DNA of 44,983 bases. Source: an uncultured Fibrobacter sp. GTDB lineage: Bacteria; Fibrobacterota; Fibrobacteria; Fibrobacterales; Fibrobacteraceae. Both the position numbers and the translations under genes were made by a program. The notes below the pieces were generated by a model, which saw only the letters and a list, made by a program, of their open reading frames with translations, was not told where the DNA came from and searched no databases. Of the stretch, positions 9,805 to 42,746 are shown in pieces; the first letter of the stretch is position 1, and each line of letters starts with the position of its first letter. The stretch spans positions 1 through 44,983 of the forward strand of contig NZ_CAMVDO010000024.1 in assembly GCF_947166265.1 (NCBI RefSeq). Direction: 5' to 3'.

Positions 9805-9813
9805 TTGCGTCTT

Positions 9814-12612
9814 ATGGTGTGCAGACGTATCATGTACTATTGTTTGTTGTTGCTGTTGGTTTTAGGACTTTCGGCTTGTTCCGATGATTCGTCCAGTTCA
9901 TCGAATGATGTTTCCGATATTACCGAAGTCAGTTCTGCTTCGGAAGATAGTGTGCCGGAAAATGAGCCGGGGCTTCCTTTTGTAGGGGGCAACGTGGTGA
10001 TTTCGGAAATTGATCCGATTAACATCGTTTACGAAGATCATGAAGGGGGTGATGCGGGGTGGATTGAACTCTATAACAAGTCTTCCGATACGGTAGACCT
10101 TTCGGGGATGGCGCTTACGGATTCGCTTGCACGCCCGTTCAAGTGGAAATTCGGCAATGTAAAGATTGCTCCGGATTCGTACTTGTTGGTCTTTATGTCG
10201 GGAAAAGATGTTCCTGATTATGTTTACCCGCACGATTCGCTTGACCTGATTGGTCCTGGCTGCTGGACTTGGACCGACGCGCAGAATGATCCACCAGGTT
10301 ATAGTTATGCGGACCCCTTGCCCGGTCAAAAGAAAAACTGTTTTAAGGATAAGGAACAACGTCAATTTGGTGCCGTCATGAAGTTGGGAGAAAATGAAGA
10401 CCTTGGCTGGTCTTCAATTGCCGTGTTTGTAGGAACAGGAAATAGCGATCCGAGTGACGTCCTCGATATGGCGGCGACTAACGAGCTCCTGGTTCACGCC
10501 TTCATTACTAAGGACCGCAAAGTTTCGCTTAGGCTTACGCAGCCTGATATCGATGACTGGAAAGGGTACGAGATGATTCTAACGGGGACGGGAGATTCTT
10601 CTACGGTGTACCGGTTGCCTCTTCCGATCGGGAAGACTTTTCCGGACCTTAAGAATATTTACGGAACGCGCATGAGTCCGGAAGCAAATGAGTCGCAGGA
10701 GGTGACGGTCAAGGTTTTCAGCTACATTGCTCGAAACCGGGGACATGAACCGCATGCGGGTTTCAGACTTTCGGAGAAGGGGGCTCGACTGTATCTGGTA
10801 AATGCCGATACGACTCTTGCGGATTCGGTGGAGTATCCCGAGATTCCAGTAGGAAAGACTTGGAATTTGGGATCCCTGGCCGATGGAACGACCGGATTTG
10901 GATTTGCCTTGCCGTCTCCTTACGGTCAGGTGAAATCGTCCGTGATGGAGAGCCGTTCCCCTGCGGTTGATACGTTGGCCGAATTCCCGCCGTCTGGTTT
11001 TTATGCGGCTCCTTTTGAAGTGAAAATTCCGCGGAATCATTCGGTTCGTTGTGTTGTTGGCGGAATTGCCCCTACGGAAGGTCCTACGGAAACGGCTCTT
11101 GTGCAGATAAAATCTTCTGCGACGATTCGCTGCGCCTCTTTCGTGCCGGGGGCACTTCCGGGTGAAGAGTTGGTTCGCACCTACATTATTGGTGAAAAGC
11201 CGAAATTGCCAGCTGTATTCCTGACGGCGGATCCGAATTCACTCTTTGACCCTGATTCGGGAATTTACATGGAAGGCCCTAACGCTCAGGAGAAGGAACC
11301 TCATTATGGAGCGAATTATTGGCAGGATAAGGAAATTCCCGTGTTTGTGGAATTGACGGAATCGGAGTCCGAATTGCCTGCATTTTCTAAGCGGGCGGGA
11401 CTCAAGATATTTGGAAATTACAGTCGTCAGAATGCCAAGAAGTCCGTCGCGGTTACTTTCCGCGAAAAGTATGGTGACAAGCGCCTGCACTACAGCCTTT
11501 TCCCCGAGTTTCCGGAACTGAACAAGTTCAAGGTGTTCCTGCTGCGCAACAATGGAAGCAACTTCGGACAGGACTACATTCGCGACCGCCTTGCCAGTTC
11601 TGTTAGCGAGGGGCTCGGTGTCGATTACCAACGCGGAAGGTTCGCGGTTGTGTATTACAACGGGGAGTATTATGGCATCCATAGCATTCGTGAACGTTCG
11701 ACGGAGTACTATTTCGAGACGCATTACGGGCTTGATCCTGACGAAATCGATTTGCTCAAGGCGGACAATTCCGTGTCGGCGGGGTCTGCGACTGACTATG
11801 TAGCCCTGATGGATTGGCTGGAAACGCATCACCTGAAGAGCGACAAGGACTACGATTACGTGAAGTCGCAAATCGATGTGGATAACTTGATGAACTATAT
11901 GCAGGTGGAACTTTATTCCAATAATCGTGACTGGCCGAGCAACAACCTAAAAAAATGGCGCGGCACAAATCCGAAAACATTGTGGAAGTGGTTCTTGTAC
12001 GATATGGATTTTGGAATGGGAAACAACTTTAGCCAGTATACGAACAACATATTTGAGTTCGCGTTGGCGGAAAATGGCGAAACTTGGCCTAACGGGCCTG
12101 AAAGCACTTTGTTGTTTAGGCGAATGTTCGAAAATGCCGATTTCAAGGCCACTTTTATCAATCGTATGACAGCGCTTCTCCAGATGAATTTCGAAAGTTC
12201 CCGAGTCCTTGCTCGAATTAAGAACATGATGGCTGAAATCGAATCCGAAATTCCCCGAGACCAGAAACGCTGGAAACTGAATGCGTCTAGGATGGAAAAT
12301 CAGCTGAAGTCGATCAAGGACTTCGCCCAAAAGCGTCCGGAGGTCTTGTATCAGGAACTTCGCGAGTATTTTGAACTAGGCGAGTCTGCTCCGTTGACCT
12401 TGACGGTTCAGGGATCGGGGACGATTCTTGTACACGGCTTGCCTCTAGATCGGTCTACGATGACAATCCCGTTCTTTGAAAATTTCCCGGTCACCTTGAC
12501 TGCATCGCCTTCGGCTGGGGGTGTGTGGAAGGGGTGGAGCGACGGGGTGAAGGAAGCCTCGCGGACTGTTGTGCCCGGTGAAATAAGCGAATTAAAAGCG
12601 ATTTTTAAGTAG
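9814..12612 (+). CDS. Large lipoprotein with lamin-tail, CotH kinase and C-terminal repeat domains
   Basis: A surface lipoprotein of about 932 residues. The start at ATG 9814 gives an Arg-Arg n-region and lipobox LGLSAC followed by an Asp/Ser linker; TTG at 9805 and ATG at 9832 are alternatives. Domains in order: a lamin-tail domain (about 60-130; [24 protein letters not shown]), a chitobiase C-terminal-like sandwich (about 390-465; [14 protein letters not shown]), a CotH domain (about 470-810; [43 protein letters not shown]), and a C-terminal InlB-like strand repeat (about 855-930; [18 protein letters not shown]). CotH proteins are atypical kinases; the second Asp of DMDFG fits the metal-binding residue. 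The target is unknown. It may be expressed with the DMT gene directly upstream. Confidence 0.85.
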
Positions 12613-12751
12613 TCTGTGTATACAGCGCTCTCTTGCGAACACCAAGGGAACAAAAAAATGTGATGTATATCTTACAGAACCGCTCTTTGACTTTTTTTTA
12701 GCTACTATAGTGTATATGGGAAATCCTGAATTTTCTAAATTTGGGCACACT
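12613..12751 (+). promoter_or_regulatory. Intergenic region with candidate promoter for the polysaccharide + half
   Basis: The 139-base gap holds TTGACT at 12687-12692, a T8 run, and TGTATA at 12711-12716 (18-base spacing), a plausible but unproven sigma-70-like pair. No terminator hairpin for the upstream CotH gene is apparent. The polysaccharide genes from 12752 need a promoter and this is the best candidate. Confidence 0.35.
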
Positions 12752-14122
12752 ATGAGTTACAATACTAAGATTCTTTGCATTGGCGCGGGCTATGTCGGTG
12801 GCCCCACTATGACCGTTATCGCCGACAAGTGCCCCGATGTAAAAGTGACTGTGGTTGATATCAACCAGTCCCGTATTGACGCTTGGAATAGCGACAACCT
12901 CCCGATTTTTGAACCCGGCCTCGATGACGTGGTGAAGCGCGCCCGTGGCCGTAACCTCTTCTTTAGCACGGATATCCCTGCTGCCATCAAGGAAGCGGAT
13001 ATCATCTTTGTTTCGGTGAATACGCCGACGAAAACTTTTGGTCATGGTGCCGGTAAGGCCTCCGACTTGCAGTACTGGGAAAAGACGGCCCGCAATATCC
13101 TCGAAATTGCCGACGAAGGCAAGATCATTGTGGAAAAGTCCACGCTTCCGGTGCGTACCGCCGCCGCCATGGAACGAATCTTGAACTCTAACGACAAGGG
13201 ACTGCACTTCGAAGTGCTTTCCAACCCGGAATTCCTCGCCGAAGGAACCGCCATTAACGACCTTTTTGAACCGGACCGCGTGCTCATCGGTAGCCACCAG
13301 ACGGAATCGGGCCTTGCCGCCTGCCAGAAGCTGGTCGACGTTTATGCACACTGGGTGCCGCGTGACCGCATCCTCACGACAAACCTCTGGAGTTCCGAAC
13401 TGACGAAGCTCACCGCGAACGCCTTCCTGGCCCAGCGCATCAGCTCTATTAACTCGATTAGCGCCCTTTGCGAAAAGACGGGTGCCGATGTGGACGAAGT
13501 TGCCTACGTGATGGGCAAGGACCGTCGTATCGGTTCCAAGTTCCTCAAGGCCTCTATCGGCTTTGGCGGTTCTTGCTTCAAGAAAGATATTTTGAACCTC
13601 GTGTACCTGTGTGGCTACTATGGTCTCCCTGAAGTGGCCGCCTACTGGGAATCGGTGGTGAAAATCAATGAATGGCAGACCCACCGTGTGGTGGACCGTA
13701 TGCTCGAGACCATGTTCAACACGATTGCAGGTAAGAAGATTGCCGTGTTCGGTTTCGCCTTCAAGGCCAATACCGGTGACACTCGCGAAAGCCCGGCAAA
13801 CCTGGTTGTGCGTGACTTGCTCGCCGAACATGCACTGCCGGTCGTAACCGATCCGAAGGCTATTCCTGATGCCAAGCGCGATTTGAAGGACGTGCTTGAC
13901 CAGGTTCAGTTCGAGGAGGATCCGTACAAGGCTGCCGAAGGAGCTCATGCAGTGGTAGTCTGCACGGAATGGAAGTGCTTTGCGGAACTCGATTGGAACC
14001 GTATTTACAAGGGCATGGCAAAGCCTGCCTTCGTATTCGACGGACGCAATATCCTGGATGCAGACGCTTTGAAGAAGATCGGTTTCGAAGTGTCTAGCAT
14101 AGGCAAGGGAAAAGCGGAGTAG
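12752..14122 (+). CDS. ugd: UDP-glucose 6-dehydrogenase, animal-like class
   Basis: A 456-residue NAD-dependent enzyme oxidising UDP-glucose to UDP-glucuronate. The ATG at 12752 is preferred over GTG at 12710 because the Rossmann strand [14 protein letters not shown] then starts near residue 5 and the catalytic Cys in [10 protein letters not shown] is residue 275, next to Cys276 of human UGDH. Many stretches read like the animal enzyme rather than the usual bacterial Ugd: [89 protein letters not shown]. All expected catalytic residues are present. It heads the + strand half of the polysaccharide locus and is three bases from the first LicD gene. It probably supplies UDP-glucuronate to the encoded glycan. 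Confidence 0.93.
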
Positions 14123-18190: not shown

Positions 18191-19033
18191 CTAATATTTT
18201 TCCCCGCTTAGTTCAAAGCGGATTGTAACGGGGGAATGATCGGAGGGGTAGCGAAACTTTTCTCCGTCGTAATAGGTCTCGTTGAGTATTCCGAAACGCT
18301 TGACCTTTGTACCTGGGGCGACGAATATGTGGTCGAGCTGCCAAATGCCGAAACGTGATGGGTCGAAGTGGTTGTAACTGCCGTTGGGTGTGCTTGTAAA
18401 TTCGGCGATCTTTTGTGCGTCGACCATGACAGAGGTTTCCAGGTTTTTGTACGATTTTGATGTTGAAGTGAAATTCAAGTCTCCGGCAAAGATGAATGGC
18501 GTGTTTCCTGCCATGGAGTAGATTTTCCGACTCATCAACTTTGCGCTTTCGGCTTGAGCATCTTTGCCATGGTAGTCAAAGTGAACATTGAAAATGTACA
18601 GAAAATCCTGTTGAAATTTAAGTTTCGCCCAGGTGCAGTAGCGGGCATGTTTGGAATCCCAACTCTTGCTTTTTTTTTCGGGTGTTTTCGACAGATAGAA
18701 CCTTCCGTAGTCGACAACGGTGAATAATCCTTTCTTTATAATAATGGGGTTGTATTCCATGGTGTCGGAAAGGATGATGTCATACTCAGGAAGAAGTTCC
18801 ATTAACTGTTTTAAGCGGTAGGGACTGCCCTCCTGAAGGCCGACAATGTCAAAGTCGTGATATTTGATGACGTTCGCGATGGGTTCTTTCCGCTTTTCCC
18901 ATGCATCGCCGTTTTCGACATCCCTGGGGTCTTCCCAGCGGATGTTCCAAGAGGCGTAACGAAGCTCCACTCCGTAAGAAACAAACGGAATGCATAAAAG
19001 GAGAACGAAAAAAATGGCGATTTGCTTAATCAT
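18191..19033 (-). CDS. Exported endonuclease/exonuclease/phosphatase-family hydrolase
   Basis: A 280-residue EEP-fold protein with a signal peptide (IAIFFVLLLCIPFVSYG), so it acts outside the cytoplasm. Metal and catalytic motifs are in order: ASWNIRW (Asn), IVGLQEG (Glu), NVHFDYHG (His), FAGDLNFTS (Asp, Asn), QLDHIF (Asp, His) and YPSDHSPVTI (Asp, His). The fold serves DNases, phosphoinositide phosphatases and sphingomyelinase-type phosphodiesterases. The start overlaps the stop of the GT8 gene by four bases, tying it to the polysaccharide operon; an exported phosphodiesterase there could trim phosphodiester-linked decorations of the glycan. That role is inference. A plain secreted nuclease is the alternative. 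Confidence 0.85.
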   Translation of the reverse strand: MIKQIAIFFVLLLCIPFVSYGVELRYASWNIRWEDPRDVENGDAWEKRKEPIANVIKYHDFDIVGLQEGSPYRLKQLMELLPEYDIILSDTMEYNPIIIKKGLFTVVDYGRFYLSKTPEKKSKSWDSKHARYCTWAKLKFQQDFLYIFNVHFDYHGKDAQAESAKLMSRKIYSMAGNTPFIFAGDLNFTSTSKSYKNLETSVMVDAQKIAEFTSTPNGSYNHFDPSRFGIWQLDHIFVAPGTKVKRFGILNETYYDGEKFRYPSDHSPVTIRFELSGEKY

Positions 19034-19986
19034 TTACGAATAATCAGCCCGCAAATTTTGTCGATGGTTCGGTAAATCGGTTTCAGACGCTTGTACATGA
19101 ATACGATCGTCCTGTAGAAAGCTGTCCTTTGGACTTTGACCGAAATCAGGTCTGCGTTTACGTCTTGTACGGAGCTGAATGCGATTTTGGGGTTTGCCAA
19201 GATGGCATCCAGTTTTTCGTGAGTCTTTTCGAGAATGCTTTTTTGAATGTTTTTGTCCGCAAGGTCAAAGCAGGTGAGGCCAAAGCTTGCATAGTAATGC
19301 ATGATCTTTGCGCAGTTTAGATGTTTGAGGAATGAAGACCTGCGCGTCACCTGGCAATTCCAGGTGCCGTCTATTTCTTTCACGATGCCACCTTGGCGGA
19401 CGTTGACCTCGTTGAGTGCGGTCTGGTCATAAACGACAGAATACTTTTCAAGCGTTTCTTTCCACAGCTTGTGCCATTCGTCAAAGAACTTTTGGGCAGC
19501 GGGAGATTTTTTGACCCAGATGACGCCACTGTTGAAATGTAAGTCCTGGTATCCGGCACTCCAGTGCAAAGGCTTGGAACGTTCTTCGTAGAAATTCTGA
19601 TAGCTGCCTTCAGAAATTTTCTGGTGACGGTCAAGTACCATTCCGATAGATATATCTTCGCTAAAGTCGGACTTCAGTTCTTCGCATACAAGCGTGTCCC
19701 CGTCGATAAAGAGAAAGTCTTCGTCGATGTAATGGTACATCGTGGTCTTTAAAAAACGGGAACGGTCGCGGTTGTTGTACTCTTCGGGAACCTGGATTTC
19801 GCAGATTTGTATGTCAATTTTATTGTGATAGGTTCTTTTTCCCGTGAATGTTGCCGCAGTACCTTGGTCAACGAGAATCACGACCTGGGCTCCTTTATTG
19901 TGCGCAAGCAGGCTAGACGCACTTATCATGGTCTGTTCATAATAAGTGTCTTTTTCATTGCTGACGAGTACGTAGACGAAAGTCAT
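19030..19986 (-). CDS. Family 8-like glycosyltransferase
   Basis: A 318-residue retaining glycosyltransferase of GT-A fold. The start is placed at 19986 (MTFVYVLVSNEKDTYYEQTM) because AAGAGG lies just upstream; an upstream in-frame ATG at 20064 would run into the previous gene. The DxD metal site is FLFIDGDTLV (Asp95-Gly-Asp97), and LHFNSGVIWVKKS plus ALNEVNVRQGG are typical GT8 acceptor-side segments. The C-terminus is basic and amphipathic (TAFYRTIVFMYKRLKPIYR), consistent with membrane attachment. Sits between the two-domain glycosyltransferase (11 bases) and the exported phosphodiesterase. The sugar transferred is not known. Confidence 0.85.
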   Translation of the reverse strand: MTFVYVLVSNEKDTYYEQTMISASSLLAHNKGAQVVILVDQGTAATFTGKRTYHNKIDIQICEIQVPEEYNNRDRSRFLKTTMYHYIDEDFLFIDGDTLVCEELKSDFSEDISIGMVLDRHQKISEGSYQNFYEERSKPLHWSAGYQDLHFNSGVIWVKKSPAAQKFFDEWHKLWKETLEKYSVVYDQTALNEVNVRQGGIVKEIDGTWNCQVTRRSSFLKHLNCAKIMHYYASFGLTCFDLADKNIQKSILEKTHEKLDAILANPKIAFSSVQDVNADLISVKVQRTAFYRTIVFMYKRLKPIYRTIDKICGLIIRK

Positions 19987-19996
19987 GGAAAACCTC

Positions 19997-21721
19997 TTAT
20001 AGGCCTTTGCCGAAAAATTGTTCGCACTTTTCGATGGCGACATCGTTACGGTTGTTGTGCACATTGGCTATGTATAAGGATGTTTTTGCGAGTTCCTTAT
20101 TTGTGATGTAGAAGGGGTGCGTTTGTTTATTGGGAACCCAAGCGACAGGGATGTTGAGGCTGTTTTCTATAAATTTTAGCCAAACGTCATCGACGGACCA
20201 TGCGTTGTCCATTATATTCTTCGGGTTGAAAAATTCTGAATCCATATCGAAAATATGGGGGGGGTAGAGAACGCCTCCGACTCCTGTAGCGAAGAGCTGC
20301 TGGGAAGGCCCTGGGTCTTTTTTGCAATCGTAATCCCAGGAATTATAGTCGACAGCGTGCTTGTTCATGTCATACAGGATTTTATGGACGCGTCTTGCCG
20401 AAATACAGTTGGGATGCTTTTTGTAGCTTGCGTACAGAGAGGCTAACATATCCCGTGTGTAGATGACATCGTCGTCTACGGTCACGATGCATGCGTCTCG
20501 GTATTCCTTCATGGCGTGAATGTATTTCTTGTGAGGCTTTAGGGGTTCACCTCCGCAACGGATTTCTAGGCCCTTCTTTTGCAATTTGAGAATTTCTTGG
20601 GGAATGTTTTCCAAGGAAACGTCTTTGTCTAGCCAAAGGATGACCTTGGTGGGCTTCAAAGTCTGATTGAGAATGCTCTTCAGGCATATAGGAAGCGTCG
20701 GGAATCGCGCTGGATAACTTGTTAACGAGACAATTATCGGAGTCTCGAATCTTTGTTTTGCAATGCCATAAGAGATGGGTAGGTAATTGTACCTGAAATT
20801 GTTCCAACTCGTTTTTGCTTTTTCAAGGGCGATTTTGATGGTAGTTTTTGCCGCAAGGCTTGGGCTAAGGCGAATCATTTTGTATAGAAAATGGATTGCT
20901 TCTTTCTTGTCATGTGCCTTTTTGGCTGCCCTGAAAGCGTTGCGAAAATCGGTAAATAAAATTTTGTTGCGTGCGTCGCGAACTTTCTTGCTCAGCTTGT
21001 AAAATTGGCTGAGACCTTTGTTGAAGCGCTCGCTTGTGTAGGCCCATTTGATTTTATTGCTTTCCGTAATTCCACAGCCACGGCGATATACAGATGAAAT
21101 CACTGGATTAAAGTGAATTTTGCCCTTGGTGGAGAGGTAGGCCCACATTGCGGTATCGAAACCGGGCTGTTTTGATTGCAGAAACTCGGGAAGAAATTCG
21201 CTGCGGTAAACAGCGGACGCCGTAGGAAATCTTCTTCGAATGAGAAGATCTTCCAAAGATACATCGTGTTCCGGTTCATCCGAAAAAGGACGGGCTACAT
21301 TTGTGTTGGTGTATAATACGGTCCCGTTTTCGGTAGAAAGCGAATAATCTAAATGGCTTTCAAGAAAGTCAACTTGTCGCTGCAACTTGTTAGGATCGGT
21401 CCAGTAATCATCTCCTTCGCAATCGGCATAGTACTTCCCTTTGGCGGCAGGATAAATGAAATTCTTCCAGATGGGGTTGCGCTTAGAATGCTGGTTTTCA
21501 GTTTGAAGGATTGGCTTGATTATATCAGGATGCTTTGCGGCGTACTCTTTTACAATTTCGGCTGTTCCATCGGTTGAAGCGTCGTCGTGAATAATGATTT
21601 CGATGGGAAAACTCACCTTCTGCATCAAAAAGCCTTCAATTGTTTGCGCAATGAAGTCTTTCTGGTTGTAGGTGGCGCAGAGAATGGATACAAGAGGAGC
21701 CTGATTCATATTTGAGAGCAT
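19997..21721 (-). CDS. Two-domain glycosyltransferase (GT2 plus a second GT-A-like domain)
   Basis: A 574-residue protein that appears to be two glycosyltransferases fused. The first domain (about 5-230) is family 2: VSILCATYNQKDFIAQTIEG, IIIHDDASTDGTAEIV and DCEGDDYWTD as the metal site. A helical linker follows (about 235-315). The second domain (about 325-550) begins PIIVSLTSYPARFPTLPICL and has ACIVTVDDDVIYTRDML as its metal site plus an ATGVGGVLYPP acceptor loop, a type often found alone in polysaccharide clusters. Starts at 21721 and 21709 are both possible, with no strong binding site. The enzyme could add two sugars in sequence, or one domain could be structural; both keep their acidic metal-binding residues. 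Confidence 0.85.
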   Translation of the reverse strand: MLSNMNQAPLVSILCATYNQKDFIAQTIEGFLMQKVSFPIEIIIHDDASTDGTAEIVKEYAAKHPDIIKPILQTENQHSKRNPIWKNFIYPAAKGKYYADCEGDDYWTDPNKLQRQVDFLESHLDYSLSTENGTVLYTNTNVARPFSDEPEHDVSLEDLLIRRRFPTASAVYRSEFLPEFLQSKQPGFDTAMWAYLSTKGKIHFNPVISSVYRRGCGITESNKIKWAYTSERFNKGLSQFYKLSKKVRDARNKILFTDFRNAFRAAKKAHDKKEAIHFLYKMIRLSPSLAAKTTIKIALEKAKTSWNNFRYNYLPISYGIAKQRFETPIIVSLTSYPARFPTLPICLKSILNQTLKPTKVILWLDKDVSLENIPQEILKLQKKGLEIRCGGEPLKPHKKYIHAMKEYRDACIVTVDDDVIYTRDMLASLYASYKKHPNCISARRVHKILYDMNKHAVDYNSWDYDCKKDPGPSQQLFATGVGGVLYPPHIFDMDSEFFNPKNIMDNAWSVDDVWLKFIENSLNIPVAWVPNKQTHPFYITNKELAKTSLYIANVHNNRNDVAIEKCEQFFGKGL

Positions 21722-21731
21722 AGAAAAATTG

Positions 21732-22958
21732 TTATTGCAACATGTCCAGTAGGTGCTTGGCGTCCTGTCTTTTGCGGAGAACCTCGTACCCGTCTTCCGT
21801 CATTTTAACAATGGCACAGCGTGGGTTGATAAAGAATGGGGTGAGGTTGTGCCTGTAGGCTCCAGATCCCTTGAAAACCAAAAAATCTCCATAGTGGTAG
21901 TGCTTCAATGTTACTTGATTTGCTATAACATCTGTTTCCATACAGGTCGCGCCTACGATGTCAGCGGTAATGGGCTGTTCCTCTTCTCTTTCGCTGTATT
22001 CATCATAGGGATAATTTACTTTACTTGTTTGAGCCCGTACCTGATAGATGCTTGCGTCTACAATGACGAAATCCTTTTGGTTTATAGTTTTGTGTTGATG
22101 AATTCTTGTAACCAATTCAAAGACGTTTGTTACAACGGATGCCCCTGGTTCTATTACAATATGGGGCTTGTGAATTTGAAACCATTCATTGTTGAGTAAA
22201 ACGTCACAAATTCCGTTGGCGTAATCTTGGTAGGAGGGCCGCTTTGAAATATCGACTTCCTTGGGGGCTGCTCCAAAAAATCCACCGCCTAAATCAAAAT
22301 ATTTGATTTCATCTAGGGCGTGCACTTGAGCTATTTCTAAAAGGCGCGAAGAGATAATTTTGTAGTTTTCGACAACGCGGTTAGTCGATGATGTGTGCCC
22401 ATGTAACGATACGACACTGATCTTATTCTCTTTTAATTTGGGAATGATTTCGTCAAGAATTTTTTGCGTAAATCCGAAACGGCTTTCTTTTAATCCACCT
22501 TGTATGGCGGATGATCCGTTGTCGGTCTTTATTTCCATGTTTACGCGAAGGCCAATATTGATCGGTAAAACTGGATGTTTTTTTCGAATGTTGATGATGA
22601 AATCAATTTCGTAGAGACAGTCTAAGTTTACAATAGATCCATTGAGGATTGCTTTTTCGATTAGAGCTTCACTTTTGATGGGACCGTTTAAAATAATGCG
22701 ATCCCCTTTAAATCCGACTTGCTGGGCCAAATCGTATTCTATTTCGGAAACAACTTCTGCAATAAAACCATTACTTTTGACGATGTCTAGTAAAAAAGGA
22801 GTGTAATTTGTTTTGAATGAATACGAAAGAAGAAATCGATTGTATCGATTTTTGAAGGCGTTGTTAAAGTCGGTCAAGTTCTTTTGAAATCTATCGGGGT
22901 ATGCCAAATAGAATGGGGTTCCGACTTCATTTGCAATTTCTTTTAATCTAGATATCAT
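21732..22958 (-). CDS. Type III PLP-dependent decarboxylase-like enzyme (diaminopimelate/ornithine decarboxylase family)
   Basis: A 408-residue fold-type III PLP enzyme. The PLP lysine is Lys49 in LLSYSFKTN; HGHTSS corresponds to the His stacking on PLP; FDLGGGFFG and IVIEPGASVV bind the phosphate; GATCMETDVI carries the active-site Cys-x-x-x-Asp of decarboxylases; GSGAYRHNL supplies the closing Tyr. All catalytic positions are kept. Its start overlaps the end of the ATP-grasp gene by 11 bases and the two ATP-grasp genes lie directly upstream, so the three probably form one chemical module in the glycan operon. Substrate is unknown: an amino acid made into an amine, or a related reaction. Housekeeping LysA is unlikely given the context. 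Confidence 0.85.
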   Translation of the reverse strand: MISRLKEIANEVGTPFYLAYPDRFQKNLTDFNNAFKNRYNRFLLSYSFKTNYTPFLLDIVKSNGFIAEVVSEIEYDLAQQVGFKGDRIILNGPIKSEALIEKAILNGSIVNLDCLYEIDFIINIRKKHPVLPINIGLRVNMEIKTDNGSSAIQGGLKESRFGFTQKILDEIIPKLKENKISVVSLHGHTSSTNRVVENYKIISSRLLEIAQVHALDEIKYFDLGGGFFGAAPKEVDISKRPSYQDYANGICDVLLNNEWFQIHKPHIVIEPGASVVTNVFELVTRIHQHKTINQKDFVIVDASIYQVRAQTSKVNYPYDEYSEREEEQPITADIVGATCMETDVIANQVTLKHYHYGDFLVFKGSGAYRHNLTPFFINPRCAIVKMTEDGYEVLRKRQDAKHLLDMLQ

Positions 22959-24150
22959 GATCTTGTAACGTTATATGGAAATAGTTCTTGAAATTATGTG
23001 TAACCGAAATGAGTTCGTCGTAGCTTGGGAACTCCAGAAGACATAAGCCGACTCGGTCTGTCAAAAATTTAAACTTGTTGATAGCGTCGCCTTTCTGTTT
23101 GAAATAAAGCTCCTTGACGATATATTTTTTGATGTAATCGTCGATTTTAATGTCTTCAAGGATTCCGTCTTTTTCTGAATATAGCAAACAGTAGGCAAAA
23201 TAACCATTGGCTTCTGCTTTATCTATGTCAAGAGGCTCGTTAAGAGCCATTTTTACAGCAAGTTCTTCGGTACTTATTTTATAGGCCCTGTTCATGAGGC
23301 TGTAGATGAAATTCCCACTATGCCTTGAGTTGACTTCTATAAAATAAATTTTTCCTGAAGAGGATACCCTAAATTCAACATTGATGGCTCCAGATTGAAT
23401 TTTAAGAGCCGATACAAGTTTTTGGATTTCATCCTTGACCTTGTTGTAAAGATCTTCTGGAATGATTCCTTTCCCAAAAATCGTTGCGCAAGGCAGAATT
23501 TCGTTGACTGCTGGATATAAATATCGTCCAAGGAAAGCAATCTTTAGAATTCCGTCTTCGATGATGCAATCACCGTTTATTTGAATGTTTCCATCCACGA
23601 ATTCTTCGATAACAACATTTCCGCTATTAGACTCCTCGTGAGCCTTGTCGACAGCGCTTTGAAGTTCGCTTTCTTGGAAAACTTTCGTTATTCCCTTGTT
23701 TCCGCCGCGGTCCGTTGGTTTCACGATTACAGGGAATGTCAGACTATCAATCGATTCCGGAATGGACGTTCCGTTAAAGAGGATGAATTTTGGAAAAGAG
23801 GTGAAACCATTGCGTTGAAGGAACTGTCTAAAATTGTTTTTGTAAGACAGTGTTTCTTTCGTGGTTTCGGAAATACCCGGCAGATGAAACTTTTCTATAA
23901 CGTGGCATCCTGCGAAGTATCCGTGTGAAGAAGCGAAAAAGACTACGCCATCAACGGGATTCTTTTCGATGTAGGCATCAATAAGATCAGTGTCGTAGGT
24001 ACTGATCATGAGCGCTTCGTCCGATTCCTTGTGGCCGGGATTTTGGGGCTTGTTGTCGCATGTGATAACATGCAAGCCACGAGATTTGGCGTACTTAATG
24101 GCTGGTACAACAGACAGATTTGCATCAAAAAAGATAATCCGTTTATTCAT
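22948..24150 (-). CDS. ATP-grasp ligase, copy 2
   Basis: A 400-residue ATP-grasp enzyme joining a carboxylate to an amine or similar nucleophile through an acyl phosphate. The N-terminal third is a Rossmann-like pre-ATP-grasp domain (IIFFDANLSVVPAIKYAKSR). The ATP-grasp core shows FPVIVKPTDRGGNKGITKV (Lys and glycine loop), VVIEEFVDG and IYFIEVNSRHSGNF, with Glu and Asn as magnesium ligands. It is four bases after copy 1 and overlaps the decarboxylase-like gene. It is visibly more AT-rich than the aminotransferase region upstream. The substrate is not known; amidation of a uronic acid or addition of an amino acid to a sugar is plausible. Confidence 0.85.
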   Translation of the reverse strand: MNKRIIFFDANLSVVPAIKYAKSRGLHVITCDNKPQNPGHKESDEALMISTYDTDLIDAYIEKNPVDGVVFFASSHGYFAGCHVIEKFHLPGISETTKETLSYKNNFRQFLQRNGFTSFPKFILFNGTSIPESIDSLTFPVIVKPTDRGGNKGITKVFQESELQSAVDKAHEESNSGNVVIEEFVDGNIQINGDCIIEDGILKIAFLGRYLYPAVNEILPCATIFGKGIIPEDLYNKVKDEIQKLVSALKIQSGAINVEFRVSSSGKIYFIEVNSRHSGNFIYSLMNRAYKISTEELAVKMALNEPLDIDKAEANGYFAYCLLYSEKDGILEDIKIDDYIKKYIVKELYFKQKGDAINKFKFLTDRVGLCLLEFPSYDELISVTHNFKNYFHITLQDHDI

Positions 24151-24154
24151 AATC

Positions 24155-25357
24155 CTATTCCACGTTTATTTTTAACCAATCACGGTCATGGCTCAGAGCA
24201 TTAGTCATTTCTTCTCTGGTGTCGAACCTGAGAAATAGCGTTCCCAAGGAAGTATTTGCACCGGTAAAGGGGACGATATGGTCGCTAGGACTTACAATAA
24301 GGCCCACGTCGCGGACATACTTGCGTTTGAATTCTGGGTTGATGTCGATAGAAACGAAAGTCCCTTCTTTGGATGAGTGCAGAATGTAGTTGCACCAAAC
24401 TCCATCGTATTCTGGGACTGTTATGTTGTCTAGTGGCATTCCGAGCGCTTTCTTGATTTCGTTGACAATGAGGTCCTGACCGGTCGCCATGTCCTGCAGT
24501 TCGGCGATACGGTTTCCGCCACCGCGGGGACTCACTTCCATAATGTAGGCCTTGCCATCGGAACACACACGACTTTCCACATTGTAGATACCGGATTTCA
24601 CGCCGAGAAGCGTGAACAGGCGCTGCAGTTGCGCTGTCAGGTCGTCTTGGAACTTCTGCTCCATGGAGGCGGGCCAAATTTCGATTGCGGGCGTGTATGG
24701 GTTTGCTGCGTTCTTGTCGAATAGCTGGTCGGAATACGCCGGGTAGACGAGCTTGCCGTCTACCGTAAAGATATCTGCGCTGGACTGAGCACCGACTTTG
24801 TCGAGAAAGTCCTCGATTATGAAATGTTTTGAAAGCGACGACGAGAGAGCGGTCTCAATGGCGTTACGTAAATTTTCCTTGTTCTCAACTTTCGTGACGC
24901 CCTTACTGCCTGCTGAATCGACAGGCTTTACAATCACGGGCCAGTTGAAGTAGGCGGTATCTTTTAGGGCGTCTTCGATGTTGTTGTAGCCCTTTGCCTT
25001 GGGACAGTTGAATCCATGCTCGGTAAGAAACTTGCGGAACAGCGACTTGTCCTGCAGAATGCGGGCGGCCTCGTAGCTGCACTGGAACGGCAGTCCCATT
25101 TTCTCGGCGACATAGGCTGCGGAAACGACTCCCGGGTCTACGGCATGTGAAAGTATTCCGTCAATTTGCAGTTCTTGTGCGGCCTTCAAGACGGCGTCCT
25201 TTTCAATGATACTCACGTTGCAGTATTCATCGGAATACTTGTGTGCAATGTTGTTGGGGAGGTAATCCGCCGTAATCACATAGACTCCTAGCTTATGAGC
25301 CTCTTCGATTACGGGGAGCAAGTAGCGGAGTCCGCCAAGGAGCATCAACTTTTTCAT
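24155..25357 (-). CDS. ATP-grasp ligase, copy 1
   Basis: A 400-residue ATP-grasp enzyme of the same length and layout as its neighbour but only distantly similar. The pre-ATP-grasp domain starts KLMLLGGLRYLLPVIEEAHK; the core has WPVIVKPVDSAGSKGVTKVE, FIIEDFLDKVGAQSS and AYIMEVSPRGGGNRIAEL. In the last motif the usual EvNpR reads EVSPR, so Ser takes the place of the Asn magnesium ligand, and a following Asn may substitute. Its start codon shares one base with the acyltransferase stop. Two different ligases beside a PLP enzyme suggest two successive amide or ester bonds on the sugar or a small peptide-like side group. Confidence 0.85.
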   Translation of the reverse strand: MKKLMLLGGLRYLLPVIEEAHKLGVYVITADYLPNNIAHKYSDEYCNVSIIEKDAVLKAAQELQIDGILSHAVDPGVVSAAYVAEKMGLPFQCSYEAARILQDKSLFRKFLTEHGFNCPKAKGYNNIEDALKDTAYFNWPVIVKPVDSAGSKGVTKVENKENLRNAIETALSSSLSKHFIIEDFLDKVGAQSSADIFTVDGKLVYPAYSDQLFDKNAANPYTPAIEIWPASMEQKFQDDLTAQLQRLFTLLGVKSGIYNVESRVCSDGKAYIMEVSPRGGGNRIAELQDMATGQDLIVNEIKKALGMPLDNITVPEYDGVWCNYILHSSKEGTFVSIDINPEFKRKYVRDVGLIVSPSDHIVPFTGANTSLGTLFLRFDTREEMTNALSHDRDWLKINVE

Positions 25358-26445
25358 TAGCGTCTCTCTTTTACATGCATTTTATTTTTTTTAGAATCAA
25401 ACCAATGAAAGAAAGGTACTTCTAAAAGGTGTATTCGCATAAAATCAATAAGGGTACATATAATATAGATTCCTAATACAGACACTATTGCGTGTATTGC
25501 GAGATAATCGGAGTTAAAGAATAATGTGTTTTGCAAGGTGTCTGTCCACAACCATTGCCGCATTGTATCGCTAGCTGCATGAATGAGTAGGACTCCAAAT
25601 GCAGATGCGCTGATGGTGTTTATAATCTTTGAATGCTTGATTTTCAAATTTTTAAAGAAAAGAAATGCAAAAATTGCTGTTGTTAGGGCGAAAATGGCGT
25701 TGGAATCCGCTACATATTTGTACCAAGTGACTTTACCGGAAATGTCATATCTCCATGCTCCCCATATAACGGTTGCCCAAGAGCAAACAAAAGAAATCAA
25801 TAAAGCCAACCCGCAAAATTTGTTGCTTTGGAATTTTTTTATAGGGTGAAGTCTTAGGTATGCTGCAATGATGTACAAGATAATAAACCACTGCACGTAG
25901 TTGAATGATATCTTTATGTGAATTAGAGGCAAAATTGTGAACATGAGGACGCATAATGCAATTAAATAGCGATGTTGTCGCTCGCTAGTTTTGTTTAATA
26001 GGATGTTTAGATACGGAATAAATAGAAAGAATAGCAAATAGCAACTTGTAAAGCTGTTTGTGATACTAGAGATGGGCAAAATATCTTTAATAAGAAATTG
26101 GATTGAATAGTTGTTGTATTTCGTTATGAAGAAAATGATTGCGATAATGATGCTATAAAACTCAATTTCTAGGAAAAGCTTTAAAAATTTATTTAGGGTT
26201 ATTTGTGACTTGACCATAAAATAACCGGTTATCAAGACGAAACAATTGATACCGGTTTTGCCACCCCAACCAAATAGCAGTAAAAAAAGTGAATTTGATG
26301 ATGTTGCTCCAAATTCTTTTATAAGCTCGAGGTATCCGGAGTTGACAACATAATGGTGTGCGACAATGATAAGCATCGTCACTATGCGGAACAACTCTAG
26401 ATTAGAGTCTCGGACTTTCTTTGGTTGAGTTTCTATTTGGGGCAT
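25357..26445 (-). CDS. Acyltransferase family 3 membrane protein
   Basis: A 362-residue integral membrane protein with about ten helices. The N-terminal motif SNLELFRIVTMLIIVAHHYVV has the Arg and His typical of the family 3 membrane acyltransferases that O-acetylate or otherwise acylate surface glycans from the cytoplasmic side. GWGGKTGINCFVLITGYFM is the second recognisable segment. The gene is strikingly AT-rich against its neighbours, which suggests separate acquisition. It follows the aminotransferase by 18 bases and shares one base with the ATP-grasp gene. Probable role is O-acylation of the glycan made by this operon. Confidence 0.85.
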   Translation of the reverse strand: MPQIETQPKKVRDSNLELFRIVTMLIIVAHHYVVNSGYLELIKEFGATSSNSLFLLLFGWGGKTGINCFVLITGYFMVKSQITLNKFLKLFLEIEFYSIIIAIIFFITKYNNYSIQFLIKDILPISSITNSFTSCYLLFFLFIPYLNILLNKTSERQHRYLIALCVLMFTILPLIHIKISFNYVQWFIILYIIAAYLRLHPIKKFQSNKFCGLALLISFVCSWATVIWGAWRYDISGKVTWYKYVADSNAIFALTTAIFAFLFFKNLKIKHSKIINTISASAFGVLLIHAASDTMRQWLWTDTLQNTLFFNSDYLAIHAIVSVLGIYIICTLIDFMRIHLLEVPFFHWFDSKKNKMHVKERR

Positions 26446-26463
26446 TCGAAATATTCTGCTATT

Positions 26464-27573
26464 CTATTTTCGAATAATGTCTATAATCCTGTCGGTGCCT
26501 TCGTTATCGAGACCTGCGAACATCGGCAAACAAAGCACCTGGTCGGCAAGTTTGTGTGCTACAGGCAAGTTCTTCGGGTCGGCAGATTCCAGTCCCTTGT
26601 AGGCGCTGAACGTGCTGATGAGGGGGTAGAAGTAGCGGCGACCGTAAATGTTGTGCTCCCGCAGTTTGGCGTAAAGGGCGTCGCGGCTGATGCCGTATTC
26701 TTCGCTGATGAAAATCGGGAAGTAGGCGTAGTTGTGACGCACGCCTTCGATGTCCTTGAGGAAACGGATTCCAGGAATGTCCTTGAGGGCTGCGCGGTAC
26801 TTTTCGGCTATAGCCTTGCGTTTTGCGATGGCGTCATCGACCTGCTTTAGGTTCAGGAGCCCGTATGCGGCGCGGATTTCGTCCATCTTGCTGTTGATAC
26901 CCGGGGCAACGACGGTCGTTTCGCCGGCGAAACCGAAGTTCTTAAGGAAATCGATGCGCTTCTTGGTTGCTTCGTCATGACAGATGAGGGCTCCACCTTC
27001 AACGGTGTTGTAGACCTTGGTGGCGTGGAAACTGAGCGTACTCATGTCGCCGGCTTTCAAAACTGATTCGCCATCCTTCTTGACGCCGAAAGCGTGGGCT
27101 GCATCGTAGATAATTTTCAAACCGTAGATGTCTGCGATTTCCTGAATACGTTTCATGTTACAGGGGGTGCCATAGACATGTACGGGCATGATCGCCGTGG
27201 TGTGCGGCGTGATGGCGGCCTCGATCTTCTCGGGGTCGATGTTGCCGGTTTCTTCGTCTACATCCACGAAGACGGGCTTTAGACCGTTCCACCAAATAGA
27301 GTGCGTTGTCGCTACAAAGCTATAGGGAGTCGTAATGACTTCTCCGGTAATTCTCATTGCCTGCAAAGCGGTAATGAGGGGGAGAGTCCCGTTGGTGAAT
27401 AAACTGATATATTTAACACCGAGATAGTCAGCAAGTGCTTTTTCAAGTTCCTCATGGTAGTGACCATTGTTGGTCAACCATTTTCTATCCCAAATATCCT
27501 GAAGCATGGGGATAAAGTCTTCCAGTTTTGGAAGAAGGGGGGAAGTGACTGTAATTGTTTTATTCTCGCTCAT
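26464..27573 (-). CDS. DegT/DnrJ/EryC1/StrS-family sugar aminotransferase
   Basis: A 369-residue PLP enzyme that adds an amino group to a keto-sugar nucleotide. The PLP lysine is Lys186 in SFHATKVYNTVEGGAL; NGTLPLITAL, TTPYSFVATTHSIWWNG, IYDAAHAFGV and GINSKMDEIRAAYG are the other family blocks. From memory the N-terminus (TVTSPLLPKLEDFIPML) resembles VioA-type dTDP-4-keto-6-deoxyglucose aminotransferases, but exact assignment needs phylogeny. It sits between the flippase (six bases) and the acyltransferase. No dTDP-sugar synthesis genes (rmlA, rmlB) are in the window, so the substrate must be made elsewhere. Confidence 0.9.
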   Translation of the reverse strand: MSENKTITVTSPLLPKLEDFIPMLQDIWDRKWLTNNGHYHEELEKALADYLGVKYISLFTNGTLPLITALQAMRITGEVITTPYSFVATTHSIWWNGLKPVFVDVDEETGNIDPEKIEAAITPHTTAIMPVHVYGTPCNMKRIQEIADIYGLKIIYDAAHAFGVKKDGESVLKAGDMSTLSFHATKVYNTVEGGALICHDEATKKRIDFLKNFGFAGETTVVAPGINSKMDEIRAAYGLLNLKQVDDAIAKRKAIAEKYRAALKDIPGIRFLKDIEGVRHNYAYFPIFISEEYGISRDALYAKLREHNIYGRRYFYPLISTFSAYKGLESADPKNLPVAHKLADQVLCLPMFAGLDNEGTDRIIDIIRK

Positions 27574-27579
27574 AATAAT

Positions 27580-29037
27580 CTACGACTTGTTTTTCTTTTT
27601 ACTCAAAAGTTCCAGCAGTTCCTTGACTGTTTTCCTGTTAAATATACAATTGCTTGCGATGTAGTAAATGGCTCCTGCGGCAATTCCGAGTACGAGTTGT
27701 AGGGTGTATTCCTGTTCGGGGAGAATTCTTGTGGCACCCATGCAAATAGCGCCCATGACCAGGGAATTCAAAAGGGTCGGAATGTACATCTTGAGCTGGA
27801 TCCAAAGGCCGGCATTTAGCAATTTTCCGGAATAATAGGTGTTTATCACAAGTCCAAAACAGGTGCCGACCCATTGGCTAAAGCAGATGGCGATAATCCC
27901 ATGAGGAATGGCGATGCAAAGAATGATTATTCCTACAATTTTCTTGATAACTTCTAGTTTCAGAAATAAATCGGACCGTCCCATAACTTGCAGAATATTT
28001 AAGTTGATCGCATGTACGGGATACCACATTTGGGCAAGGCAGATGATTTGTAGAATGAGAATGGCGTTGACCCATTTATCCGTAAGGACCAAGAGAATGA
28101 ACGGCTTTGCAACAGCACTAAGGCCAATCATTAGGGGAAATATGACTAGGGTTGCCATATTCAAAAACTTTAAATATCCTGTCCGCAACTTGTCAGGGTC
28201 GTTTTGAATTTTACTCAAGACGGGGTAGGTGACTCTCTGGAAAATGCCCGTGATATTGGAAGACGGGAAGTTCGCAAAATGATTTGCCCTGCTGTAGTTT
28301 CCTAATGTGCCCGCAGAGAAGACCTTGCCGATAATTAAGTCGTAGATGTTTTCGTACAGGGTGTTCAGTAAACCCGAAACCAAAAGTTTAGAGCCGAAAC
28401 CGAACATATTCTTGAAAGAGGACTTGTTGAAAAAGGTCTTGGGTCGCCAATGAACCAAAGTCCAGAATAGCACCACTCTCGAGGATGTTGTCGTTATTTG
28501 TTGGACGACGAGTGACCATACGCCTAGCCCATTGTATGCGCAGACAAGGCCGGCCGTTCCACCTATAATGGCTCCGATGAGGGAAACCTTGGCAAGTGTT
28601 TTGAAATTCAGATCAATCGTCAGGTTAAGGCGCTGGATTGACCCGAAGGCCTGTATAATTAAGTTGATGGCGAGAATTCTCAGAATGTCTGAGAGCTGAG
28701 GCATTCCGTAGAATTGGGCGATGAAGGGGGCCGCTAGGAATATTATTCCGTAGCATGCGCCTGCCATAAAAATATTGAAGAAAAATACGGTCGCTTTGTC
28801 GGCTTCGTTGCGGTCTGGCTTGCGTATGAGGGCGTTGCCGAAACCACTGTCGATGAAGGTCTGACTTACTGCCATGAAAATGGCGAGCATGGCGATCATG
28901 CCGTAGTCGTTTGGCGTCAACAGTCTTGCGAGGAGTATGCCGAAAAGAAATTGTACGCCTTGCGTAGAGAATCTTTCTATGGCGCTCCAGATGACACCTT
29001 TGAATGTTTTTTGCTTCAAAGACATAAGCGTCTTCAA
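27580..29037 (-). CDS. Wzx/WzxC-family polysaccharide flippase
   Basis: A 485-residue protein with about 14 membrane helices in the PST/MATE arrangement. The opening TFKGVIWSAIERFSTQGVQF then LLARLLTPNDYGMIAM is typical of WzxC/TuaB-like exporters that flip lipid-linked oligosaccharides across the inner membrane. IDSGFGNALIRK and a conserved region around FSAGTLGNYSRANHFANFP also fit. The tail is lysine-rich (SKKKNKS). ATG at 29037 is used; an internal ATG at 29025 (MSLKQKTFKG) would also work. Lies between the CotH lipoprotein and the aminotransferase. With the Wzy-like protein at the operon end it forms the export and polymerisation pair. Confidence 0.92.
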   Translation of the reverse strand: MKTLMSLKQKTFKGVIWSAIERFSTQGVQFLFGILLARLLTPNDYGMIAMLAIFMAVSQTFIDSGFGNALIRKPDRNEADKATVFFFNIFMAGACYGIIFLAAPFIAQFYGMPQLSDILRILAINLIIQAFGSIQRLNLTIDLNFKTLAKVSLIGAIIGGTAGLVCAYNGLGVWSLVVQQITTTSSRVVLFWTLVHWRPKTFFNKSSFKNMFGFGSKLLVSGLLNTLYENIYDLIIGKVFSAGTLGNYSRANHFANFPSSNITGIFQRVTYPVLSKIQNDPDKLRTGYLKFLNMATLVIFPLMIGLSAVAKPFILLVLTDKWVNAILILQIICLAQMWYPVHAINLNILQVMGRSDLFLKLEVIKKIVGIIILCIAIPHGIIAICFSQWVGTCFGLVINTYYSGKLLNAGLWIQLKMYIPTLLNSLVMGAICMGATRILPEQEYTLQLVLGIAAGAIYYIASNCIFNRKTVKELLELLSKKKNKS

Positions 29038-29046
29038 AATATAGAA

Positions 29047-30312
29047 TTATATGTTCTCGTCAATCCACTGGATTCGTTGTTCTATCCAGTATTTTAGAGT
29101 GTCTACGGCTTCCTGGTAATTACTGAACTTTCTAAAAAAGGGAAAGCCGCTGTCGGTTTCGAGAACAGGCCATCTTTTGAACTCGTTTTGCGATGCTTTT
29201 GATAGCTTTTTCGATATGGAATCAATGGAATCCAGGGTGGCTGCAAACGCTGCTCGATTCTTTTTCCAAAAGTTCTTTACTTGCGCTTCGTAAGCCTTGT
29301 TCTTGAAAAGGAATCGGTCCCAACCGTATTTACGAATGAACCATTGGTCAGGTCCGCTTTTTTCATCTCTCGAATTTCCGTAGCCTAGGTCGAAATCCCA
29401 TACCGGTCCCATTTTTAGGGGGGAGTCTTTTTCCCAGGTAATAAAAATGCTTCGTCGATGTCCGTCGATATTCTTTGTAAATTCCTGTATCCAGTAGTAT
29501 CTTACAAAATCTTCGATGTCGATCCAGTGGGCGATGCTGTCTATGTCGTAAATATCCTTGGATTGTAGAAAATGCTCGAAATGATTGATGTGGTCTTCGA
29601 GAAGTTTTTGGGAATATGTACTGGGTTCCTTGGGCTGGTTGAATTTGAAAATATAATTTAGACTAGAGGTGAAGAGGATTCCGTCAGTAGTTGTTTCGGA
29701 AGTCTTTTCAAAGAGAAAACTCGAGTCGTCTTTAGGGATGTTGACTCGGCTTTCGGAAACCTTGACATGCTCGACTAGAAGGTATATTCCTAGGTATTGT
29801 CGATTGAGGTACAGTTCAATGAAACGGCATTTGGGATAGTATTCATCACCGAGAATTCCTGCAAGCTGATAGGTGATGTAGTTTTGCAACATGGACTTGT
29901 CGCGAAAGTTGGAGATCAGGTCCCACTCCTTGTCCTTGGGCATCCCGAGCAGGGAATCCTTTTCGGCAAGTTTGATTTTGTATCCATATTTCGTCATGAC
30001 GAAACTGGAATTACCGCGTCCTCTGATTGTGTGGCTCAAAATAGGTCCGGAAGGCTTATCTTTGTCGTAGAATTGCAGGTATGCTGGAATTTTTGTTTCC
30101 TTGTCGTTAATTTGCTTGAAATTCTCGGTCTCGATGACTAGACGAGGTAACCCTGCGTAGGGGTATTCCGAATCATCTAAAGGCAGGTAAGATTCCTCTG
30201 AAGCAGTAGACGAATAATTGTCCCAGGTCCCACAGGAACTAAGGGTATATACGGTAAAAATGAAGAATAGGGGAGAAAGAACAAACAGAAGCTTCTGAAA
30301 CAGGCGCTTCAT
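29047..30312 (-). CDS. CotH-kinase family lipoprotein
   Basis: A 421-residue lipoprotein (lipobox TLSSC, Cys27) made up mostly of one CotH domain. HTIRGRGNSSF is the ATP-binding loop, LGIYLLVEHVKVS carries a conserved Glu-His pair, NIDGHRRSIFI is the catalytic-loop region and GPVWDFDLGYGN the metal-binding Asp motif, so it looks like an active atypical kinase. Spore CotH proteins phosphorylate serines on secreted proteins. Here the gene is second in the glycan operon, ten bases after tagD and ten before wzx, so it may modify an envelope protein or the glycan. It is not a close copy of the lamin-tail CotH protein at 9814. Confidence 0.87.
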   Translation of the reverse strand: MKRLFQKLLFVLSPLFFIFTVYTLSSCGTWDNYSSTASEESYLPLDDSEYPYAGLPRLVIETENFKQINDKETKIPAYLQFYDKDKPSGPILSHTIRGRGNSSFVMTKYGYKIKLAEKDSLLGMPKDKEWDLISNFRDKSMLQNYITYQLAGILGDEYYPKCRFIELYLNRQYLGIYLLVEHVKVSESRVNIPKDDSSFLFEKTSETTTDGILFTSSLNYIFKFNQPKEPSTYSQKLLEDHINHFEHFLQSKDIYDIDSIAHWIDIEDFVRYYWIQEFTKNIDGHRRSIFITWEKDSPLKMGPVWDFDLGYGNSRDEKSGPDQWFIRKYGWDRFLFKNKAYEAQVKNFWKKNRAAFAATLDSIDSISKKLSKASQNEFKRWPVLETDSGFPFFRKFSNYQEAVDTLKYWIEQRIQWIDENI

Positions 30313-42711: not shown

Positions 42712-42746
42712 TTTGCTTGAAAAAGGGCTATTTTTGTAACAGTAAT

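Follow-up and report, generated by a model that had tools for sequence, protein, structure and literature searches.

A decarboxylase clade distinct from LysA pairs with ATP-grasp ligases in a Fibrobacter glycan cluster and in loci of other phyla

What could a pyridoxal phosphate (PLP)-dependent decarboxylase do next to two ATP-grasp ligases inside a glycan operon? The question is raised by three genes on a contig of an uncultured Fibrobacter sp. (NZ_CAMVDO010000024.1, assembly GCF_947166265.1), of which we analyzed a stretch of 44,983 nucleotides, hereafter the window. The genes for ATP-grasp ligase A (24155..25357, 400 amino acids), ATP-grasp ligase B (22948..24150, 400 amino acids) and the PLP enzyme (21732..22958, 408 amino acids) are intact, contiguous open reading frames (ORFs) on the minus strand. 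Ligases A and B are separated by a gap of 4 bp, the ligase B and PLP genes overlap by 11 bp, and the ligase A gene overlaps that of an upstream acyltransferase by 1 bp. These coordinates confirm the view of an initial annotation that the genes overlap or nearly touch within a glycan operon. Its statement that all three products keep their catalytic motifs is also correct: the PLP enzyme has Lys49 and Cys339, and the ligases retain the two ATP-binding lysines (K104 and K144 in ligase A) and the final E-x-x-x-R metal-site motif. Both ligases matched ATP-grasp families in Pfam, and the PLP enzyme matched Orn_Arg_deC_N and Orn_DAP_Arg_deC. On balance, we consider it probable that these genes belong to a cassette for N-aminoacylation of a nucleotide amino sugar followed by decarboxylation of the attached amino acid.

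With both Pfam domains, the Schiff-base lysine and the catalytic cysteine present, the PLP enzyme has the features of a fold-III PLP decarboxylase. It might be a second diaminopimelate decarboxylase (LysA) placed in a glycan cluster by chance, and lysA is indeed its best NCBIfam match (202 bits). That score lies below the curated cut-off of the LysA profile TIGR01048 (297.9 bits), with which the PLP enzyme scored 202-203 bits versus 364 bits for the true LysA encoded by another gene of the same genome. In a maximum-likelihood tree, the PLP enzyme belongs to a separate clade of 37 rows (support 100/99) that spans Fibrobacterota (Fibrobacter), Actinomycetota, Clostridia and Bacteroidales. The LysA rows, including the LysA of the same genome, branch apart (97/93), and the FslC branch is also separate from the PLP clade; a few long-branched rows leave the deep order of the tree uncertain. 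The outcome that the initial annotation had named as fatal to its proposal, grouping with housekeeping LysA in a genome without another LysA, is therefore not what we found.

Three tree rows that are wrong frames or long branches (L081, L084 and L091) were excluded from the motif table. In a 23-member alignment, Lys49 is invariant and Cys339 is nearly so (at least 90%). The LysA motifs EPGR, LIRPxxY and CE are all missing: aligned clade members contain EPG[ATSGM] (ENG in L071) instead of EPGR and Met, Leu or Ile instead of Glu after the catalytic Cys, and lack LIRPxxY altogether. The enzyme from the window has EPGA and Cys-Met, and the clade as a whole is marked by the signature YS[FY]KTN, EPG[ATSGM] and C[MLI]ExD. 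A LysA duplicate was rejected on the strength of score, tree and motifs; judged by its sequence, the PLP enzyme is a non-LysA decarboxylase. A plasmid search for its close relatives yielded only matches of about 26% identity, many of them annotated lysA.

The N-citrylornithine decarboxylase profile NF041039 (FigC/FslC) gave 133 bits, below its 500-bit cut-off. An AlphaFold model of the PLP enzyme (predicted local distance difference test, pLDDT, 89.5) matched LysA, FigC and BtrK about equally, so the fold alone is undecisive. FigC/FslC decarboxylates a conjugated amino acid, N-citrylornithine, and has Met after the catalytic Cys; together with SbnH, AcsE, MccE and BtrK, which likewise act on conjugated amino acids, FigC has been grouped with DAPDC and D-ODC (PMC7857480). 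Mainly because the Met, Leu or Ile after the Cys resembles FigC-type enzymes, the substrate of the PLP clade may be a conjugated amino acid as well. The EPGR-type Arg is kept in FigC, and among the enzymes compared, its loss is confined to the PLP clade.

Is the pairing with ATP-grasp ligases peculiar to the window? We compared 36 loci of the PLP clade, drawn from Fibrobacterota, Actinomycetota, Clostridia and Bacteroidales, with 14 LysA loci, some of them in the same genomes. In 31 of the 36 clade loci, the PLP gene has an ATP-grasp gene no more than 5 kb away (no more than 300 bp in 26 of these); none of the 14 LysA genes has one within 5 kb. The pairing is general across four phyla and not a matter of chance, and the concern in the initial annotation that the genes might rarely cluster in other genomes was unfounded. 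The same difference in linkage also speaks against the second-LysA explanation, which we regard as extremely improbable. The neighborhood search that the initial annotation proposed, for two ATP-grasp genes and a decarboxylase in order, gave a divided result: two ATP-grasps occur within 5 kb in 10 of the 36 loci, but only the window showed A, B and PLP directly adjacent in that order. The ATP-grasp subfamily varies among the clade loci (PylC-like, A-like or B-like), a variation that makes simple inheritance of a single block less likely.

Two further arrangements were observed. In four Brevibacterium loci (L058, L060, L073 and L076), ATP-grasp genes on the opposite strand stand on both sides of the PLP gene; in L058, which was scanned, they are PylC-like, and a FemAB-family gene is located nearby. 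Decarboxylases of Fibrobacterota that form a sister group to FslC (L039-L044) are likewise accompanied by an ATP-grasp gene, at a distance of up to 5 kb in five of six loci, outside clusters with the DegT sugar aminotransferase, and possibly represent another ligase-decarboxylase pathway.

The two ligases of the window are distinct, with about 30% identity, as the initial annotation had supposed when it took them as a hint of two couplings. Both are related in sequence to BL00235, and the solved structures nearest to the ligase B model, that is, its closest ATP-grasp fold, are the L-amino-acid ligases BL00235, RizA and BacD/YwfE (14-21% identity over the structural match). The metal-site residues are kept, and the model suggests that ligase B is likely of the L-amino-acid-ligase type, although the ligases here are encoded in a glycan operon. 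Known L-amino-acid ligases activate the alpha-carboxyl.

To what would the amino acid be coupled? The DegT sugar aminotransferase gene (26464..27573, minus strand; best solved relative 2po3, NCBIfam DesI, G+C content 50.8%) is separated from ligase A only by the gene of the membrane acyltransferase, and a DegT gene lies within 8 kb of the PLP gene in 17 of the 36 clade loci. In two clostridial loci, a PIG-L deacetylase gene is found close upstream of the PLP gene. An operon of a Lachnospiraceae genome (L072:5752-13020) combines genes of the DegT, nucleotidyl transferase, PLP, ATP-grasp, methyltransferase, NeuB and UDP-GlcNAc 2-epimerase families, which suggests that the product is a nonulosonic acid whose aminoacyl group is methylated. 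Because the PLP genes neighbor DegT, PIG-L or the NeuB operon and not, outside the window, the UDP-glucose dehydrogenase (UGDH) gene, a sugar amine is a more likely acceptor than glucuronate.

The initial annotation had linked the module to UGDH (12710..14122, plus strand) and envisaged coupling to the glucuronate produced through it. In such a glucuronamide pathway, the PLP enzyme would make a free amine or diamine, which an ATP-grasp ligase would couple to the glucuronate carboxylate. UGDH does belong to the same cluster, and the ATP-grasp protein Cj1438C of Campylobacter jejuni, which amidates glucuronate with serinol-phosphate or ethanolamine-phosphate, provides a precedent (PMC11800379). 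Against this, only one of the 36 clade loci, namely the window, has UGDH near the PLP gene, and there it is 7.6 kb distant and divergent, on the other strand. Furthermore, the published account of Cj1438C is of a TupA-like ATP-grasp and not of the L-amino-acid-ligase type likely present here, and Met after the Cys is a poor fit for free basic amino acids. The Pfam matches of ligases A and B included no TupA family. As proximity of UGDH to the PLP gene is not conserved across the clade, we rejected glucuronate coupling as the principal explanation and consider it quite unlikely.

The full unit is larger than the trio, whose conserved partner is DegT and not UGDH, and reads Wzx-DegT-acyltransferase-ligase A-ligase B-PLP-glycosyltransferase family 2 (GT2). 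In the amino-sugar reading that we favor, DegT would produce a nucleotide-linked amino sugar, probably a dTDP-4-amino-4,6-dideoxyhexose; RmlB is encoded elsewhere in the same genome. On the amine thus installed in the sugar, ligases A and B would assemble an amino-acid group in amide linkage, with ligase A as the older partner of DegT and ligase B working with the PLP enzyme. The side-chain carboxyl of one amino acid would form the bond to the amino sugar, and the other ligase would add a further coupling. The PLP enzyme would then strip the alpha-carboxylate from the amino acid held by its side chain, converting, for example, gamma-Glu to 4-aminobutanoyl or beta-Asp to beta-alanyl, and a free amine would be left on the sugar. 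Transfer by the GT2 enzyme and export of the unit by the Wzx flippase would follow. Inferred here are which amino acid and which carboxyl take part, in what order the ligases act and that ligation precedes decarboxylation. The GT2 gene (19997..21721, minus strand), directly after the PLP gene, encodes a candidate transferase for the decorated sugar and has relatives near PLP genes in two other genomes (G046 and G090). Wzx (27580..29037, minus strand) is conserved immediately upstream of DegT.

Several points weigh against this reading. Its weakest part is the side-chain linkage, which must be assumed because ligation through the alpha-carboxyl would use up the very group that the PLP enzyme is to remove. 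The case for the acceptor comes from neighboring genes only, and 19 of the 36 clade loci contain no DegT gene within 8 kb. ATP-grasp genes are absent within 5 kb in five loci, of which L035 ends at a contig edge, and the clade loci are not independent, as several come from one genus.

A serious rival keeps the amino-sugar cassette but reverses the steps. The PLP enzyme would first make a free omega-amino acid (gamma-aminobutyrate, GABA, from Glu or beta-alanine from Asp), and an ATP-grasp ligase would then couple it to the sugar amine via the remaining carboxyl. The product would be the same, and the ligase would use a normal carboxyl, as L-amino-acid ligases do. The initial annotation, too, had the PLP enzyme form the free amine first. 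This order is less likely in view of the active-site pattern, Met after the Cys and no EPGR, which resembles that of conjugate decarboxylases; moreover, the related enzymes BtrK, FigC and VinO, all of ligation pathways, act after conjugation. We therefore judge the reversed order to be unlikely, if still worth serious attention, and retain ligation followed by decarboxylation as the preferred sequence. A broader proposal, that this fold-III clade acts on sugar-bound amino acids and, together with interchangeable ATP-grasps, gives surface glycans basic omega-aminoacyl groups, is possible but tentative.

Comparison within Fibrobacter bears on how the unit was assembled. An ATP-grasp gene of varying subfamily occurs within three genes after DegT in 42 of 44 Fibrobacter loci, a count made by eye in which eight of the distant cases were confirmed as ATP-grasp by Pfam. 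Fibrobacter orthologs of ligase A (at least 51% identity) are close to DegT, mostly without a PLP gene. The G+C content of ligase A (50.4%) is close to that of DegT, in contrast to ligase B (40.1%), the PLP gene (39.7%) and the acyltransferase gene (35.1%), and third-position G+C splits likewise. Because this split agrees with the association of ligase A and DegT, the trio is best understood as parts of two pairs: ligase A with DegT, older and native, and ligase B with the PLP enzyme, which differs in origin and was probably acquired. One genome (G046, locus L028) has the order DegT-B-PLP-GT2b, ligase A being encoded on the opposite strand, and another (G022, locus L180) has acyltransferase-DegT-A-B-GT2b and no PLP gene, its ligase B and acyltransferase being 63% and 49% identical, respectively, to those of the window. 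Since the latter keeps the order without PLP while the former includes it, the PLP enzyme seems to be an optional addition to the pathway.

Behind the conserved Wzx-DegT pair, Fibrobacter genomes have an exchangeable acylation slot: across loci L165-L201, at least four ATP-grasp cassettes replace one another, with LicD genes, with an SDR-like protein of 255 amino acids, with a protein denoted U326 or with the PLP enzyme. U326 (about 325 amino acids, no Pfam match) recurs beside ligase A in many Fibrobacter genomes, for instance at L029:11761-12741 (minus strand) and L166:4403-5374 (plus strand).

In the window, the module is embedded in a glycan cluster of the Wzx/Wzy type that includes CotH, TagD and LicD genes. 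A TIGR02147 (Fsuc) match and the nearest relatives point to a Fibrobacter-like genome, 3.77 Mb in size. The membrane acyltransferase (25357..26445, minus strand; Pfam Acyl_transf_3) possibly acylates the same sugar as the ligases. Two CotH kinase genes, at 9805-12612 (plus strand) and 29047-30312 (minus strand), frame the cluster, and one of them encodes a lamin-tail domain; the CotH pair, TagD and two LicD genes are likely responsible for phosphate-linked glycan decorations. Near the end of the window, an ORF of 673 amino acids with a TTG start (42717-44738, plus strand) showed weak matches to M6 peptidases and to a type IX secretion tail (Por_Secre_tail).

None of the enzyme superfamilies is new, nor is the concept of aminoacylated amino sugars. 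The initial annotation did not recognize the combination as a named system, and we likewise found no named glycan system of ATP-grasp and fold-III decarboxylase in the libraries and open-access literature searched, a scope that leaves room for a description elsewhere. Within the open-access literature, searches for Qui4N bearing aminobutanoyl or beta-alanyl groups and for Fibrobacter surface glycan structures gave nothing usable. Without a name in these sources are the dedicated decarboxylase clade, its signature, the cross-phylum coupling to ATP-grasps and the exchangeable slot behind DegT. If ligation and then decarboxylation on the sugar is the true course, a decarboxylation step would be added to bacterial surface-sugar chemistry, and the building of amine-ended side chains (GABA- or beta-alanine-like) on amino sugars would be explained. 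The signature allows such loci to be recognized in four phyla, and, given the slot behind the conserved aminotransferase, species that have or lack the PLP gene can be compared to test how gene content relates to glycan structure.

Among known systems, the HS:2 glucuronamide genes of C. jejuni (Cj1435-Cj1438) resemble the module in that an ATP-grasp domain amidates a surface-glycan sugar with an amine (PMC11800379). By description, they differ in a TupA-like ATP-grasp fused to a glycosyltransferase, a uronic acid acceptor and no mention of a fold-III decarboxylase; linkage to UGDH, as would be expected of relatives of this type, is limited to one of the 36 loci. For the sugar chemistry, the nearest precedent may be the peptidylamido-glycan of type B flagellin in Clostridioides difficile, in which Fuc3N bears an Ala-Gly-taurine chain; the genes CDR20291_0244-0247 encode the DegT-like aminotransferase FdtB, an acyltransferase, a D-alanine-ligase-like protein and an alanine dehydrogenase, and an N-methyl-glutamyl legionaminic acid of Clostridium botulinum is cited in the same paper (PMC5207245). 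Likened by gene description, the window has an aminotransferase, an acyltransferase and a ligase side by side (24155-27573). Unlike it, the C. difficile locus contains the alanine dehydrogenase and, in that paper's account, no decarboxylase (PMC5207245).

FigC/FslC of the rhizoferrin pathway fits the PLP enzyme as well as LysA does in profile and fold and shares Cys-Met in the active-site loop. It differs in keeping the Arg of EPGR, in its partner, an NRPS-independent siderophore (NIS) synthetase rather than an ATP-grasp, and in its separate tree branch. For ligation and then fold-III decarboxylation, butirosin biosynthesis appears to be the nearest analog; BtrJ is the ATP-grasp ligase of its side-chain pathway. 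The likeness, by description in the case of BtrJ, is that of an ATP-grasp ligase adjoining a fold-III decarboxylase, as in the window and in most clade loci. The differences are the acceptor, which is the carrier protein BtrI, and the setting in secondary metabolism rather than a surface glycan. A carrier-protein mechanism was rejected for the window, as no carrier gene fits between the packed genes at 19030-30312; a carrier encoded elsewhere was not sought. BtrK itself is a fold-III decarboxylase that acts on glutamyl-BtrI (PMC7857480), and the same order of ligation, decarboxylation and ligation is followed in the vicenistatin pathway by VinN, VinO and VinM (PMC11284099).

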